Of a DNA stretch of 64,000 nucleotides, positions 1,239 to 7,486 are shown piece after piece (the first letter of the stretch is position 1; each line of letters begins with the position of its first letter). The notes below the pieces were generated by a model. It was not told the DNA's origin, did not search any database, and was given only the letters and a program-made list of their open reading frames with translations. The position numbers and the translations under genes are program-made. Origin of the DNA: Desulfosporosinus acidiphilus SJ4 (lineage in GTDB: Bacteria; Bacillota; Desulfitobacteriia; Desulfitobacteriales; Desulfitobacteriaceae); assembly GCF_000255115.2 (NCBI RefSeq), contig NC_018068.1:3567977-3631976 (forward strand), read 5' to 3'.

Positions 1239-2873
1239 GGGATTACTGAACAGTCCCCATATTTTTAGTTTCTAGGCAACAAACAAAATCTCCCAACTCG
1301 AAAAAAGGCGTTTCCCAAAAAAGGTACAAAAGATCCCGGAGGCGCTTCCCCAGGTTCATGATGATGAACTGTAAGCCAATGACCGTCTCACTCGTTTCTT
1401 TGAGACGTACCATTATTCGACCTAGTCCATAACGACGTTTTCCTTCACCGAATTTCGCCTCGACTGCATTTCTTAGGCCTGCCTCTTGTTTCTCTAGCCG
1501 CCTTTGTTCTAAATGCTCTTTTTTATCCTTCGAGGGTCGACCTAGTTTGGGCCCGTTAAGCCGAATGCCATGTAACTTGCAGTACTGCAGGTTGTCTCGG
1601 TTCCGATATATTTTATCGGCAATCACGGATTCAGGATAGTTTCCATGGCGCTCCTTATAGGTTTCTACCGAATCAATCAGGGTGGTGCCCTCATTAAAGG
1701 CTTCCCAACTCAACTTCTCGATCCAAGCAAATCCGTTGACGATACTTATGGCAACTTTCGCTCCAAATTCTGTGGCTGCTGTTTTTTTACCCCTCACAAT
1801 CGGGCGAACATGCGGTTGGCTAATGCTCACGATACGCTCTTCTATAGTGTGGACTCGTTTGTCATACATGGTTTTTTGCTGTTCAAAGAGTGTTTGTATG
1901 GTTTCTAAGTCTTTTTGCTGCCGTTTACTGAGTCCTTCTGGGTACTTGGCTGATAGTTTCAAGACGATCTGAAGGTCTCTTGTAACGAAGCTCAGCTGTT
2001 TCCGAATGGCCTTGCGGATTTCACGACTTCTGGGTTTCCGATTCTTTTCTAACTTCAGATAGAGTTTACGTGCCTTTTGTCGATAGGTTCTTGGCTTGAG
2101 CTCTTTCCCTATTTGATTCTCATGCAAGGTGTCCACCATGGCCTCTAACTTTTCCCGTGCGTCATTTAGTAGAGAAAAATCCGTGGGATATTTCACATCG
2201 GCCGGGGTGCATGTGGCATCCAAAATGAGTTTTCCGTGGTTTTGTTGGGGTGGTTGCTCACTGCTTGCTTGATCTTCACGACGATTGTCGTCTGTACAAC
2301 CTGAACTTGGTGGGGGAGTGTTTTGATCTTTATGATCTTCAGTTTCCGTCTTTGTTTCTCCCTTACATAAGGCTTCGTTCAGTTCAGCAATTACCTTAGC
2401 GTCGAGGCGTTTCCGAAAATGGACCATACTCGATGAATCGAACGGTGGAGTGGTTTGAAATTCCTCCAGCCCGATGAAGTATTGCAAATAGGGGTTTTCC
2501 ATGATTTGTTGGACGGTTTCTTCGTCGGAAAATCCACACTTTTCTTTGATGATGAGGGCACCCAATGCGACACGAACTGGTTTCGCAACATTTCCAGTAT
2601 GCTTTGGGAAATGAGAAGCATATCGCTCTTCAACAACGTTCCAGGGAATCAAATCGGCCATCTTGACCCAACGGTTATTCGCATCAAGTTTGCCGCCTGC
2701 AAAAAATCTGAAGTCTTCGAGTAAGCTAATTTGACCTGTAGGTTTTCGGTACATTTTCGTCCCCCATCTGCAAGGTTTTTCGACCATATTCATCCTTTAT
2801 CTTGCTTTATTATACCACGAAAATGGCCTTAGTTCCTACTCCCATGCAGGTTTCGAGGTTATTCAGTAATCCC
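1239..2873 (-). mobile_element. Complete insertion sequence, 1,635 bp, IS5/IS1182-like
   Basis: Perfect 12-bp terminal inverted repeats GGGATTACTGAA (1239-1250) and TTCAGTAATCCC (2862-2873) enclose one transposase gene. The element is flanked by exact 7-bp copies of TAATTTA (1232-1238 and 2874-2880), so both ends are defined at base level. The transposase stop codon lies inside the left repeat. Exact ends, identical flanks and an intact gene point to a recent insertion. The family label rests on the DUF772-type N-terminus; the 7-bp duplication is not typical of the IS5 groups I know, so the subfamily is open. Confidence 0.92.
1243..2754 (-). CDS. IS5/IS1182-like transposase
   Basis: DDE transposase of about 503 residues. 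The N-terminal DUF772-type helix-turn-helix part (MYRKPTGQISLLEDF, GALIIKEKCGFSDEETV, NPYLQYFIGL) is followed by a catalytic domain with LILDATCTPADVKYPTD (first Asp), VIADKIYRNRDN (second Asp) and EAKFGEGKRRYGLGRI (Glu). The middle (about residues 140-190) is a hydrophilic linker. The reading frame is open from 2793, but family members begin at MYRKP, so the ATG at 2754 is preferred; neither start has a strong Shine-Dalgarno site. The gene is intact and probably active. Its stop overlaps the left inverted repeat. Confidence 0.9.
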   Translation of the reverse strand: MYRKPTGQISLLEDFRFFAGGKLDANNRWVKMADLIPWNVVEERYASHFPKHTGNVAKPVRVALGALIIKEKCGFSDEETVQQIMENPYLQYFIGLEEFQTTPPFDSSSMVHFRKRLDAKVIAELNEALCKGETKTETEDHKDQNTPPPSSGCTDDNRREDQASSEQPPQQNHGKLILDATCTPADVKYPTDFSLLNDAREKLEAMVDTLHENQIGKELKPRTYRQKARKLYLKLEKNRKPRSREIRKAIRKQLSFVTRDLQIVLKLSAKYPEGLSKRQQKDLETIQTLFEQQKTMYDKRVHTIEERIVSISQPHVRPIVRGKKTAATEFGAKVAISIVNGFAWIEKLSWEAFNEGTTLIDSVETYKERHGNYPESVIADKIYRNRDNLQYCKLHGIRLNGPKLGRPSKDKKEHLEQRRLEKQEAGLRNAVEAKFGEGKRRYGLGRIMVRLKETSETVIGLQFIIMNLGKRLRDLLYLFWETPFFELGDFVCCLETKNMGTVQ

Positions 2874-3412: not shown

Positions 3413-3724
3413 TTATATTAAATTTCGATATTCTCTTCTAGCATCCACGATGGCATATATAATAACTAACTCAGCCTCTTCGTTTATCTTATAAAACACA
3501 AGAGGTCCTTCGACAATTATTACTCTATACCCTTGCTTTTTTAAAATCGAATATCTAGGAATACTTCCCGACTCTGGAAACTCCTGAAGACGATTGATTG
3601 CCGTTTCAATCTTATCCAAATAGCCTAGTGCAATATCAACATTACCTGAATCATCTGCAATATAAAAAACGAGTTCACGGAGCTGTTCCTCTGCTTTATC
3701 CGTTCGTAAGATTTTATACTTCAT
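3413..3724 (-). CDS. RelE/ParE-family toxin
   Basis: A 103-residue protein of the RelE/ParE toxin fold: N-terminal strand YKILRTDKAEEQLRELVFYI, the helix pair with a conserved Leu-Pro-like segment (RLQEFPESGSIP), then the C-terminal strands GYRVIIVEGPLVFYKI and IIYAIVDARREYRNLI with the family's Arg-rich end. Such toxins either cleave ribosome-bound mRNA (RelE) or poison gyrase (ParE); which applies cannot be told by eye. Five bases separate it from the antitoxin gene upstream, the usual antitoxin-toxin order, so both are probably made from one promoter at about 4033-4061. Confidence 0.85.
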   Translation of the reverse strand: MKYKILRTDKAEEQLRELVFYIADDSGNVDIALGYLDKIETAINRLQEFPESGSIPRYSILKKQGYRVIIVEGPLVFYKINEEAELVIIYAIVDARREYRNLI

Positions 3725-3729
3725 CCATT

Positions 3730-3999
3730 CTACCTTTCCAGTAAAGATGCACGAAGATCATCAAACGAATCCTGAATTGCTGCTACCCTTCCATGTTTCA
3801 CATCGTCTTCCGCTTCCGCAAGTGTTCTGAGTAATTCCAGTTCGGATTTCATCTGATAGTAATCCTGCAATCCAAGAACTGCTGTATCTCCTCGTCCATT
3901 TACCGTAATAATTACTGCATCCCTTGATTCTCTGCACTGCCTAGAAATTTCACTATAATGATTCCTTAAATCTGCTGACGGTCTGATTGCTGCTTCCAT
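3730..3999 (-). CDS. Phd/YefM-family antitoxin
   Basis: About 89 residues starting MEAAIRPSADLRNHYSEISR, the classic Phd/YefM opening (a short N-terminal DNA-binding domain that includes the ADLRN motif), followed by VIITVNGRGDTAVLGLQDYY and a charged helical tail that should wrap the toxin. The frame is open to 4065, but the ATG at 3999 fits the family length and has a GGTGAT ribosome site eight bases upstream. The protein should neutralise the RelE-type toxin encoded next and repress the shared promoter. Confidence 0.85.
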   Translation of the reverse strand: MEAAIRPSADLRNHYSEISRQCRESRDAVIITVNGRGDTAVLGLQDYYQMKSELELLRTLAEAEDDVKHGRVAAIQDSFDDLRASLLER

Positions 4000-4032
4000 G
4001 ATATCACCGCTTTTCGATATATATATAGTCAT

Positions 4033-4061
4033 ATCATATCGTAAAATGACTATTCTTTCAA
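4033..4061 (-). promoter_or_regulatory. Putative sigma-A promoter of the toxin-antitoxin pair
   Basis: On the minus strand TTGAAA (4056-4061) and TATGAT (4033-4038) are separated by 17 bases, 34 bases upstream of the antitoxin ATG. The AT-rich, partly palindromic stretch between -10 and start could be the antitoxin operator. Confidence 0.55.
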
Positions 4062-4065
4062 TCAA

Positions 4066-4437: not shown

Positions 4438-6213
4438 TTACCCAACATGCTTGGGAAATTTTATAATAAAAGAGGTTCCATTTTTTCCCGTCTCAAAATC
4501 GAACGAAGCATTATGTCGTTGCGCAATGCTTTGAGAAATTGCCAAACCAAGACCTGTACCAGTATCTTTTGTCGTGAAAAAGGGAGTCCCCACTCTTTTC
4601 TGGATTTCAAGAGGTATTCCTGGTCCATCATCTCGAATTACCAGAACAACTTTTGCAGGTTCTTGCAGCGTACTGATGGTTACACTCCCCCCAGTATGAG
4701 TAGCTTCCAGTCCATTCCGAACAATGTTCAAGATAAGTTGTTTTATTTCATTTGTATCAAGCAGTATATTCTCAGTTTCATTCAAATTTAGACGCACCTC
4801 TTTATTGTTGTTAAAAGCATCCGCCTGCATTAGAGGATATAAATTGTAAACAATATCATTAATATTTTGGTACTTTGCATGTTCGACGTTAACCTTTGCT
4901 AACGACAAGAAGTCCGTAATAATGAGGTTTGCGCGATCAATTTCACTAATCATCAACTCCAAAACCTCACTCTGTTCTTTAAAATTTGGTTTTGTACTCA
5001 GTAATTGAAGAAACCCTCTTACCGAAGTTAGTGGATTTCGAATTTCATGGCCGATTCCTGCCGCCAATTGGCCGATTAAGTTAACTCTTTGTAAACGGTT
5101 TAACTCATTTTGTTGCTCTTTGATACTGGTAACATTTTGAAAGAAGATGGTTAATCCGTCTTCGAATGGATATGCATGATATTCATAGTATTGATGAAGT
5201 TGTCCAAAGCCTACGTCCTCCCAATGAAGAGATTTCCTCTCTATCATTGCCTGTTTAATTTTAAGCTCTGTTTTTGTAGCTGCTATTCTAGGACAAGCCT
5301 CCCATAAATTTAATCCTAAAATGTTTTCATTATCAAATAGTTCTTTGGCAACCCTGTTTATATAAGTACACTGCCAATTATTATCAAACGTCAAAAATCC
5401 ATCTGTTACCCCTTCTAATATTCTTTCTATTCTTAATCTCTCAAATTCCAATTCTGAGTTCATTTGATTAAGATTTTCTGTATAATAAGATAATTGATTC
5501 ATCAAGGGTTTCAGTTCCGGAAGTTTTTGGATAATTCCTTCATTTTCAGTAGATGCTTCATGTCTCTGGATTATCATCTCGGTGAATTCTTCCAAATAAA
5601 ATTGTATCTCGTTAAAATATCGGCGAACTAAATTCACGATTAAGGCAGATACTAAAAGCAATGCAATAATTGTAAGTGTTAAAATCTGAAAGGGCTCGAA
5701 AAGGACATTTGTGGCTTTAAGATATAACCAGGCATAACCGTTCAATGTACCATTAATATAGACAGGTTTTTTAGTAAATATTGCCCCATTCTCGCCCCAT
5801 GAAGTATTCGTATGATGATCTAAAACCATTTCTTTTAATGAGGCATACTTAGTATTATTTAAAGGAAAATTGGTGTCCAAATCAATATCATAGTAACCGG
5901 AAAGATCTTTGTTGTCACTTTTTAGCAGAGGACTTAATATTGTATCTATCTCATTAATTTTTGCCTGTTTACTTTCATCGGCCTTTCTTTTAATCCTATT
6001 TATCAAAAGAGCATTTTTATTAAGATCTTGTTCAATAGACGATTCCCTCATCCAGGACTGGTTTTCGAGTTTTAATTCTACATTATTCCAAAATAGATTC
6101 TCTGTAGATATGGCAAATATTATCATGAAAATAAATAAAATCACTGTTATTTTAGTTAAGGTTTTCTGAATTACAGATTGTTTATTTAACATCGTTTTTA
6201 TATTTTTTAACAT
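4438..6213 (-). CDS. PAS-containing sensor histidine kinase, sporulation-kinase-like
   Basis: 591 residues. Two membrane segments (about 22-37 and 175-195) flank an external sensor region of about 135 residues. Then come a coiled linker, a PAS-like domain (about 263-365), a HisKA dimerisation helix with GQLAAGIGHEIRNPLTSVRG (phospho-accepting His389) and a HATPase_c domain with NIVRNGLEAT (N box), DDGPGIP (G1) and GTGLGLAISQS (G2). The H-box sequence matches the orphan KinA-E type kinases that feed Spo0A. No response regulator lies nearby. The ATG has AAGGAG 8 bases upstream. It sits downstream of the agrB/agrD-like genes, which makes it the best candidate receptor for the peptide; this is inference, since classical AgrC kinases have a different six-helix sensor. 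Confidence 0.88.
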   Translation of the reverse strand: MLKNIKTMLNKQSVIQKTLTKITVILFIFMIIFAISTENLFWNNVELKLENQSWMRESSIEQDLNKNALLINRIKRKADESKQAKINEIDTILSPLLKSDNKDLSGYYDIDLDTNFPLNNTKYASLKEMVLDHHTNTSWGENGAIFTKKPVYINGTLNGYAWLYLKATNVLFEPFQILTLTIIALLLVSALIVNLVRRYFNEIQFYLEEFTEMIIQRHEASTENEGIIQKLPELKPLMNQLSYYTENLNQMNSELEFERLRIERILEGVTDGFLTFDNNWQCTYINRVAKELFDNENILGLNLWEACPRIAATKTELKIKQAMIERKSLHWEDVGFGQLHQYYEYHAYPFEDGLTIFFQNVTSIKEQQNELNRLQRVNLIGQLAAGIGHEIRNPLTSVRGFLQLLSTKPNFKEQSEVLELMISEIDRANLIITDFLSLAKVNVEHAKYQNINDIVYNLYPLMQADAFNNNKEVRLNLNETENILLDTNEIKQLILNIVRNGLEATHTGGSVTISTLQEPAKVVLVIRDDGPGIPLEIQKRVGTPFFTTKDTGTGLGLAISQSIAQRHNASFDFETGKNGTSFIIKFPKHVG

Positions 6214-6236
6214 CTTTAGGCTCCTTAGATAAGGGT

Positions 6237-6289
6237 AAGGATTACAACTTAAAGCTGGGTCATAAACCCAGCTTTAAATTGTAATCCTT
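6237..6289 (-). terminator. Long inverted repeat between agrD-like gene and kinase gene
   Basis: Left arm 6238-6260 and right arm 6266-6288 form a 23-bp stem with one mismatch around a five-base loop; the core is AAAGCTGGGT/ACCCAGCTTT. There is no clear U-run on the minus strand, so it may be a partial terminator, RNA-processing or stability element that sets kinase expression below that of the peptide genes. Confidence 0.6.
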
Positions 6290-6322
6290 GTATAATATAC
6301 TATTGCAACTTATAAATTGGAC

Positions 6323-6445
6323 TTACTTTTGTAAGGATTTTGGAGCTGTGGGTTGGTAACCAAGCCATCCACAAGCAAAAACTGAGGTTACGTTAGCCAA
6401 CAAAAGAAGACCCGCTGCTATGAATGTAAATATTACTCGCTTCAT
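6323..6445 (-). CDS. agrD: AgrD-like cyclic lactone autoinducer precursor
   Basis: A 40-residue ORF: hydrophobic leader MKRVIFTFIAAGLLLL then ANVTSVFA, then CGWLGYQPTAPKSLQK. The pattern Cys, three to four mostly hydrophobic residues, then YQP-x2-P-x2-L is that of clostridial cyclic lactone peptides. AgrB would cut after the ring and join the C-terminal carboxylate to Cys25 as a thiolactone, giving a CGWLG or CGWLGY ring. A very strong ribosome site (AAAGGAGGTGG) precedes the ATG, which overlaps the agrB stop codon as ATGA, so the two are translationally coupled. Confidence 0.88.
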   Translation of the reverse strand: MKRVIFTFIAAGLLLLANVTSVFACGWLGYQPTAPKSLQK

Positions 6446-7026
6446 AGTTCCACCTCCTTTCTGTTAAAAATCGGGAACAAGGTTATACATTGATAAGTGA
6501 TCCCTAAAAGTGAACTCACTTTTAGAAGGTTTAACTGGGTAAAATTTAAAACTACCATAACTACCAAGACAAAGATAATCGACAGAATTTTAAGCGTTCT
6601 TCGTAGTTTTTTTGAACGGATGGGTTTTCCGGGACTATCGACGGGAGCCAATATTCCAACGGTAATTAAACAAAATAAAATGAACGGTAATCCAAATTTT
6701 ACCTGCACTAATTCAAACCTAATGGCTTGTTCTGAAATGAAGCCAATAAAGGTATAAATAATCGCTCCAGACATCAAACATTTGAACGGAGTATTGAAGT
6801 GAGCCCCCCCTGATAATCTCCTTAGAGATCCGCCGAAGAAGGTTGCAATTAAAGCAGGAATCATTACATGGAAAATGTAGCTAGTTAGAACGACTAAAAG
6901 CGTTCCAGTGATAGATAGAATAAACGTCTCGACAGCGTAAGACAATATTTCTTTTTTTTCATTATCCAACTTCGTCTCCATAACAATGGTGTCTGAAATC
7001 TGGTTACTGAGATCAGAAAGATTCAT
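6442..7026 (-). CDS. agrB: AgrB-like peptide-processing membrane protease
   Basis: 194 residues, polytopic. The conserved AgrB active-site segment reads RRLSGGAHFNTPFKC, with His76 and Cys83 in the spacing of the catalytic His/Cys pair. Four to five hydrophobic segments follow or surround it. AgrB proteins cleave the C-terminal tail of AgrD and form the thiolactone ring at the membrane. Start ATG at 7026 has an AGGA site seven bases away; the gene overlaps the preceding membrane-protein gene by 14 bases and the agrD-like gene by four, so the three form one unit. Confidence 0.9.
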   Translation of the reverse strand: MNLSDLSNQISDTIVMETKLDNEKKEILSYAVETFILSITGTLLVVLTSYIFHVMIPALIATFFGGSLRRLSGGAHFNTPFKCLMSGAIIYTFIGFISEQAIRFELVQVKFGLPFILFCLITVGILAPVDSPGKPIRSKKLRRTLKILSIIFVLVVMVVLNFTQLNLLKVSSLLGITYQCITLFPIFNRKEVEL

Positions 7027-7486
7027 GTTTTCCTATAAAACCTCTTTTTCTGTATTTTTCCAAGAGAAAGGCGGTTAAAAACAATAGAATCACTTGAGGT
7101 TCAAATATTAAAATTCGGGGAATTAAATTCGTCATTAGAGTATCTGGATCAATATTAAATATTTTTATTAGCGTTGAGACACAAACTAATTCATAACCAA
7201 TAAGTATCAAAAAGCCTAGCGTACTTCCTAAAAAGGAAATTGCAATGTCTCCTTTAGCCCAAAAGACTAAGAATAAAAATAATAAAATAATTAAAATGAT
7301 AGTATGTAAACCAAAAGGGACAGGAAGCTTCCTTACTAAATAGGCTGCTATTGCTAAACAAGTTCCAATAGTAACTATTTTAGGCCATTTCATTTTGGCA
7401 TTCGCAATAGTAAAAGCTAACACTGTAAGAGCAATTTGCTCCGGGATTCCTTGAAATATCAAGCTGATAAAAGGCATTGAGTTCAA
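7013..7486 (-). CDS. Multi-pass membrane protein of the agr-like operon
   Basis: 157 residues, almost all hydrophobic, with about five membrane segments and a short basic C-terminus (EKYRKRGFIGKHESF). I do not recognise a named family. It starts with TTG (7486), seven bases after a GGGGG ribosome site, and its end overlaps agrB. Position and membrane topology suggest a part in peptide export or perception, for example a stand-alone version of the transmembrane sensor that AgrC kinases normally carry fused; this is speculation from context. Confidence 0.75.
   Translation of the reverse strand: MNSMPFISLIFQGIPEQIALTVLAFTIANAKMKWPKIVTIGTCLAIAAYLVRKLPVPFGLHTIILIILLFLFLVFWAKGDIAISFLGSTLGFLILIGYELVCVSTLIKIFNIDPDTLMTNLIPRILIFEPQVILLFLTAFLLEKYRKRGFIGKHESF

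Follow-up and report, generated by a model that had tools for sequence, protein, structure and literature searches.

Four genes on the minus strand of a 64,000-nucleotide stretch of the Desulfosporosinus acidiphilus SJ4 genome (NC_018068.1, positions 3,567,977 to 3,631,976; hereafter the window) encode a small membrane protein of 157 residues, the peptidase AgrB, the pro-peptide AgrD and an orphan histidine kinase. We consider it probable, at about 0.58, that these genes form a quorum-sensing operon of the agr type in which the receptor is split and signals into the sporulation phosphorelay, and that the system functions as a split AgrC would if a sporulation-type kinase had replaced its kinase half. 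The operon is of the agr type by virtue of its AgrB and AgrD but is not a canonical agrBDCA operon, as neither a LytTR regulator nor a GHKL kinase was found at the locus. In the mechanism that we propose, AgrB would cut and cyclise AgrD to give a small thiolactone peptide, with the predicted ring CGWLG, which would then be secreted. The lone five-helix AgrC sensor of 157 residues would bind this peptide and act within the membrane on the orphan kinase of the same operon, which has two transmembrane (TM) helices. The kinase may in turn alter the flow of phosphate to Spo0F, then Spo0B and Spo0A, so that cell density would inform the decision to sporulate, whether by raising or by lowering sporulation.

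The features assigned to the locus, in window coordinates, are as follows.

7013..7486 (-): free-standing AgrC-type sensor, 157 residues, five TM helices, no kinase part; TTG start
6442..7026 (-): AgrB peptidase, 194 residues; PF04647, E 8.5e-37, with His76 and Cys83
6323..6445 (-): AgrD pro-peptide, 40 residues; above the cut-off of TIGR04223 (NCBIfam), and by alignment
6359..6373 (-): predicted autoinducing-peptide ring Cys25-Gly-Trp-Leu-Gly29, then a conserved YQPxxPKSL recognition tail; positions 26-29 variable between invariant flanks
6235..6291 (-): hairpin with a stem of about 26 bp between agrD and the kinase gene; by folding, with the same core in relatives
4438..6213 (-): orphan sensor histidine kinase, 591 residues; by Pfam, TM scan, AlphaFold2 model and tree
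5002..5049 (-): kinase H-box with His389 and specificity residues T-S-G-F-Q-L at H+7, +8, +11, +12, +14 and +15; by Table 1 of PMC6136694

The sensor and agrB genes overlap by 14 bp and agrB and agrD by 4 bp, and agrB is present as a single copy in the genome (4.99 Mb in three contigs were scanned). An earlier note on this DNA, made from the letters alone, had described overlapping genes for a membrane protein of about five helices, an AgrB with His76 and Cys83 and a 40-residue AgrD, together with a PAS/HisKA kinase on the same strand and the H-box that it quoted. All of these assignments were borne out: both AgrB residues were seen, and AgrD scored 29.4 bits against a TIGR04223 cut-off of 19. 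The note had also stated that the canonical partners are absent. This held for the LytTR regulator AgrA, and no receiver or LytTR gene adjoins the kinase and agr genes in the window, the nearest receiver found in the genome being 109 kb from the kinase. It did not hold for AgrC, the sensor half of which corresponds to the 157-residue protein.

The free-standing sensor and its partners

The AlphaFold2 model of the 157-residue protein has five helices, with a mean predicted local distance difference test score (pLDDT) of 92.9. In a search of relatives, the sequence of this protein alone matched the N-terminus of a 485-residue open frame (E 4.6e-15) that contains SPOB_a and HATPase_c_5, adjoins AgrB and a LytTR regulator and is accordingly an AgrC-like kinase. 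A profile was then made from 37 kinase-linked sensors; the four split-AgrC sensors of alignment A1 were excluded and no AgrC was in it. This profile matched residues 5-146, approximately, of four fused AgrC-like GHKL kinases (E 8e-20, 4e-18, 3e-17 and 3e-12) and no other protein of more than 300 residues among 9,210 open reading frames; the homology is to these fused AgrC-like kinases. AgrC is itself split in at least 16 loci, where a gene for a sensor with five TM helices is followed by a GHKL gene that starts with two, with AgrB and LytTR nearby. The split-AgrC sensor gene stops after TM5, fused AgrC has five plus two TM helices, and the window locus also has five in the sensor and two in the kinase. 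From the split loci, AgrC can be described as a five-helix sensor joined to a two-helix kinase, and the gene boundary in the window lies at the same point, with a partner of the HisKA type.

Residues P15, E16, R52, G59, H61, E99, R124 and P130 are common to the kinase-linked and AgrC sensors. The helix limits and the distribution of charge suggest that E16, R52, H61 and R124 lie near the outer face, where they may form a plausible peptide pocket. The window protein ends after TM5 and has no GHKL kinase, the linked kinase being of the HisKA/HATPase_c type; by homology, then, it is the sensor half of AgrC made as a separate protein. The earlier note had envisaged either a separate sensor or an exporter. 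The homology to AgrC sensors upholds the former and, together with the lack of any transporter match in domain searches, speaks against the latter, which was rejected. Fold searches with the sensor model gave no significant match in the PDB (best Foldseek E 1.9; VIA Z under 5), a result that is uninformative either way because the sensor has no sequence relative there. Plasmid GHKL proteins taken as candidate AgrC yardsticks lacked annotated agrBD neighbours and gave no hit with the sensor profile, and the sensor had no phage match.

Of 61 relatives, 41 have a sensor homologue. The gene order is sensor(-sensor)-agrB-agrD-kinase in genus g1 and kinase-sensor(-sensor)-agrB-agrD in family f3, where a GGDEF-HD-GYP gene often follows, and the overlap between sensor and agrB recurs in most loci. 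Nearly all fetched relative loci with readable agr flanks have a same-strand kinase beside sensor-agrB-agrD, and the cassette is therefore not a chance arrangement. The four genes thus mostly stay together and the kinase co-occurs with agrBD, as the reading of the earlier note requires, albeit in two gene orders; the lineages concerned also have LytTR and AgrC, though at loci of their own that belong to another sensor branch. Two isolated cases, which carry no weight alone, depart from the intact cassette. The sensor gene of Dehalobacter restrictus (L061), an organism without reported sporulation, is frameshifted (6276-6746), the kinase, agrB and agrD genes being intact. The cassette kinase gene of G016 (L034, 1942-5404) is in two pieces, with inserted frames of 369 and 185 residues that are likely to represent a mobile element.

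Across the phylum, 141 of the 398 genomes searched contain the sensor. Its neighbours were counted per locus and kind of neighbour, on the same strand within 3.8 kb and with AgrB also near, in a sample in which genus g1 is over-represented. The neighbour was a HisKA kinase in 36 cases, a GGDEF-HD enzyme in 21, both in nine, a split GHKL AgrC in 20 (16 with LytTR) and a fused AgrC in four. On well-supported branches of the sensor tree, the HisKA label changes at least nine times, the GGDEF label at least seven times and the GHKL label twice, implying that the sensor changed its output partner many times. The sensor gene lies 11-12 bp from a kinase gene, and apart from agrBD, in loci L077, L079 and L080, and in L094, L107 and L182 it adjoins a kinase gene while agrB is missing; this adjacency argues that the kinase is the partner of the sensor.

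A membrane GGDEF-HD-GYP gene directly follows sensor-agrB-agrD in loci L052, L053, L054, L058, L078, L083, L084 and L086, and the same arrangement is seen in L087, L091, L096, L102, L108, L109, L111 and L112. The GG[DE]EF and HD-GYP motifs are mostly kept in the enzymes examined, although L074 and L092 show no GGDEF motif. Such loci suggest a peptide input to cyclic-di-GMP signalling. The order sensor-agrB-agrD-GGDEF-HD was also seen in a record named as a Klebsiella pneumoniae plasmid (L072; NZ_CP061968.1, 7982-20416), with 58% GC and genes like those of the phylum of the window; this record is probably a contaminating contig. With slightly more doubt than belief, we put forward the idea that the free AgrC sensor is a receptor family for interchangeable outputs (Spo0F-type HisKA, GGDEF-HD-GYP and GHKL) and the missing peptide receptor of many agr loci that have no AgrC, possibly including the two unexplained genes upstream of Clostridium perfringens agrB.

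AgrD has the leader, the ring Cys and the Pro-x-x-Pro tail expected of such pro-peptides; its C-terminal pattern is SVFAC-xxxx-[YH]QPxxPxxLQ, with C-GWLG-YQPTAPKSL in the window. The four residues after the Cys vary between close relatives and species, and the flanks are invariant or nearly so. Clostridial AgrDs are described as having five-membered rings and a Pro-x-x-Pro tail (PMC8748961), and by comparison with these a thiolactone ring of Cys-Gly-Trp-Leu-Gly is predicted. Beyond the kinase core, peptide distances correlated with those of the sensor (r 0.38) and of AgrB (0.41; partial Mantel, p 0.0005), and less so with those of the kinase ectodomain (0.27). The covariation with sensor and AgrB is suggestive only, because the kinase core represents the history of the species poorly. 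Distances of the sensor and of the ectodomain, which is the fastest-changing part of the kinase, remain correlated when the catalytic domain is accounted for (partial r 0.69), a value that shared ancestry can inflate.

The linked kinase and the phosphorelay

The kinase has TM helices at residues 18-36 and 177-195 on either side of an ectodomain (approximately 42-165), followed by PAS (261-365), HisKA (381-441) and HATPase_c (486-588) domains. The PAS call is marginal (PAS_4, 23.2 bits, with the cut-off at 23.1) and is stronger in relative L055; the AlphaFold2 model is of modest confidence. Davidson et al. (2018) recognise candidate phosphorelay sporulation kinases by three features: the gene is an orphan, the protein has a PAS domain, and its specificity residues form a string such as TAGFQL. 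The strings are TAGFQL in KinA, TVGFQL in KinB, TSGFQI in KinC and TTGFQL in Desulfotomaculum acetoxidans (PMC6136694). The window kinase has TSGFQL, and the cassette kinases keep [TS][TS]GFQ[LFMI] across two families. Of the 49 HisKA kinases of the genome, 29 have a receiver within 2.5 kb and none of these carries TxGFQx, which occurs in 9 of the other 20 (Fisher p 8e-5, a value that overstates independence because the nine kinases are related).

A tree built from 59 kinase cores puts the window kinase into a nine-member clade of cassette kinases (support 100/99). This clade is part of a larger one with 23 members (100/99), which consists of agr-linked kinases and the TxG[FY]Qx orphans of the genome with one receiver-adjacent exception. 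The kinase-domain phylogeny that the earlier note had proposed as a check thus places this protein with orphan kinases. According to the tree, clade-mates of the window kinase joined sensor-agrBD loci separately in L089, L090, L099 and L110. No receiver or LytTR gene adjoins the cassette kinases of the relatives examined.

Spo0B is present in the genome, between the genes for ribosomal protein L27 and Obg, and almost every near relative also has it, whether or not the cassette is there. The best Spo0F candidate has 44% identity to Bacillus subtilis Spo0F and lies between the alr/pyrG side and transaldolase/glpX, these neighbours being named by eye from sequence. Two genes contain Spo0A_C (L119, 3892-4833; L120, 3284-4081), and the second Spo0A-type gene is a divergent paralogue. 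The kinase is assigned on sequence features to the Spo0F-directed sporulation type, and the Spo0F assignment is well supported but not proven. The earlier classification of the H-box as that of orphan kinases feeding Spo0A agrees with the orphan status, the PAS domain, TxGFQx, the tree and a genome that encodes Spo0B, Spo0A and a Spo0F candidate.

The hairpin between agrD and the kinase gene has a 26-bp stem with the core AAAGCTGGG/CCCAGCTTT and a folding energy of -43.7 kcal/mol (z -7.3). Most f1 relatives, other genera included, have this core in the corresponding position, and family f3 has a different hairpin 3' of agrD. The element is likely to be a leaky terminator or an RNA-stability element, and as a leaky terminator it possibly sets the level of the kinase. 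It lies 21 nt from the kinase start, which is too short for an intervening promoter, so that the kinase is probably read through the hairpin at a lower level or transcribed from an overlapping promoter. A repeat element was rejected as the origin of the hairpin, which occurs at a single locus in the genome, and Rfam gave only a chance match (rli40, with 18 bits where the gathering score is 100).

The surroundings of the operon include a ParE/Phd-type toxin-antitoxin pair just 3' of the kinase gene (window 3413-4065) and a DDE transposase close by (window 1243-2793). The genes that flank the operon are unlike those of relatives. These flanks and the nearby transposase point to a possible relocation of the operon or of the DNA around it.

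Alternative readings

Several observations weigh against a split receptor that feeds the phosphorelay. The case for peptide binding and phosphotransfer is an indirect one, made from sequence. Sister loci tie the same sensor family to GGDEF-HD-GYP enzymes, and a neighbour need therefore not be a partner. The strong hairpin between agrD and the kinase gene may uncouple expression of the kinase, which, with an ectodomain and a PAS domain of its own, may respond to other signals. Furthermore, G008, G014 and G028, of the same genus, have Spo0B and no cassette, so the cassette is not essential for the sporulation machinery, and Dehalobacter restrictus, for which sporulation is not reported, retains an intact kinase, AgrB and AgrD.

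It is possible, but in our view unlikely, that a Spo0F-type kinase reads a separate signal of its own through its ectodomain and PAS domain, sharing the operon for co-production, and that the sensor serves another output. The kinase does have a full sensory apparatus, the hairpin partly divides the transcription units and family f3 also links a GGDEF-HD enzyme that could be the output of the sensor. However, the linkage survives a change in gene order, kinases of the clade joined sensor-agrBD loci on more than one occasion, and sensor and kinase are adjacent in several loci where agrBD is neither between nor near them; the covariation of sensor and ectodomain, which ancestry can inflate, also argues for a link between the two. 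We give distinctly less credence to an arrangement in which the kinase ectodomain binds the peptide and the 157-residue protein is an accessory factor, acting as chaperone, exporter or immunity factor for AgrB/AgrD. The overlap of sensor and agrB would fit a complex with AgrB, and the rapid change of the ectodomain would suit a peptide-binding role, but the homology to the AgrC sensor half speaks against it, as does the occurrence of the sensor with GHKL kinases and LytTR as split AgrC and beside kinases without any agrB. Peptide distances also follow the sensor and AgrB rather than the ectodomain, although the difference is small. Finally, it is improbable that the operon acts through a distant, unlinked response regulator with no relation to sporulation: at least 43 receiver-like stretches are present in the genome and the specificity residues are degenerate, but the six positions are within the range of verified phosphorelay kinases (PMC6136694) and are conserved in cassette kinases of two families.

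Comparison with known systems

If a split receptor feeds the phosphorelay, the operon offers a testable answer to the question of how agr peptides could trigger sporulation. In these environmental, partly culturable bacteria a candidate peptide receptor is encoded next to a candidate entry to the phosphorelay, which makes the question directly testable. The free sensor beside cyclic-di-GMP enzymes would, if the pairing is true, connect an agr peptide directly to a second messenger. In the open-access literature that we searched, neither the sensor-sporulation-kinase nor the sensor-cyclic-di-GMP arrangement was found described, which is not proof of absence.

The operon shares with canonical agrBDCA of Staphylococcus aureus the AgrB peptidase, the AgrD pro-peptide and an AgrC-type multi-helix sensor domain; here, however, the sensor is encoded by a separate gene, the kinase is of the HisKA/PAS and not the GHKL type, and AgrA/LytTR is missing. 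Also comparable are the agr locus of C. perfringens, CPE1563-CPE1562-agrB-agrD without AgrC (PMC2706048), and agr1 of Clostridioides difficile, agrB1D1, which affects sporulation (PMC8534292). In both, agrBD has no adjoining AgrC or AgrA, and the two genes of unknown function before agrB in C. perfringens resemble in position the two sensor genes of many loci described here, but these systems have no linked kinase. Agr system 1 of Clostridium autoethanogenum, agrD1-agrC1-agrB1, has no agrA and lies beside a spo0E-like gene (PMC8748961). It is similar in the absence of AgrA and in a possible link to sporulation, but it has an AgrC and a Spo0E-like gene where the present operon has a sporulation kinase. 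With the Spo0F-directed orphan kinases of sporulation, KinA-E and Dtox_1918 of D. acetoxidans (PMC6136694), the window kinase has in common its orphan status, the PAS domain, TxGFQx and the presence of Spo0F, Spo0B and Spo0A in the genome, and it differs from these kinases in that its operon also encodes a peptide-signal cassette and an AgrC-type sensor as a protein of its own.

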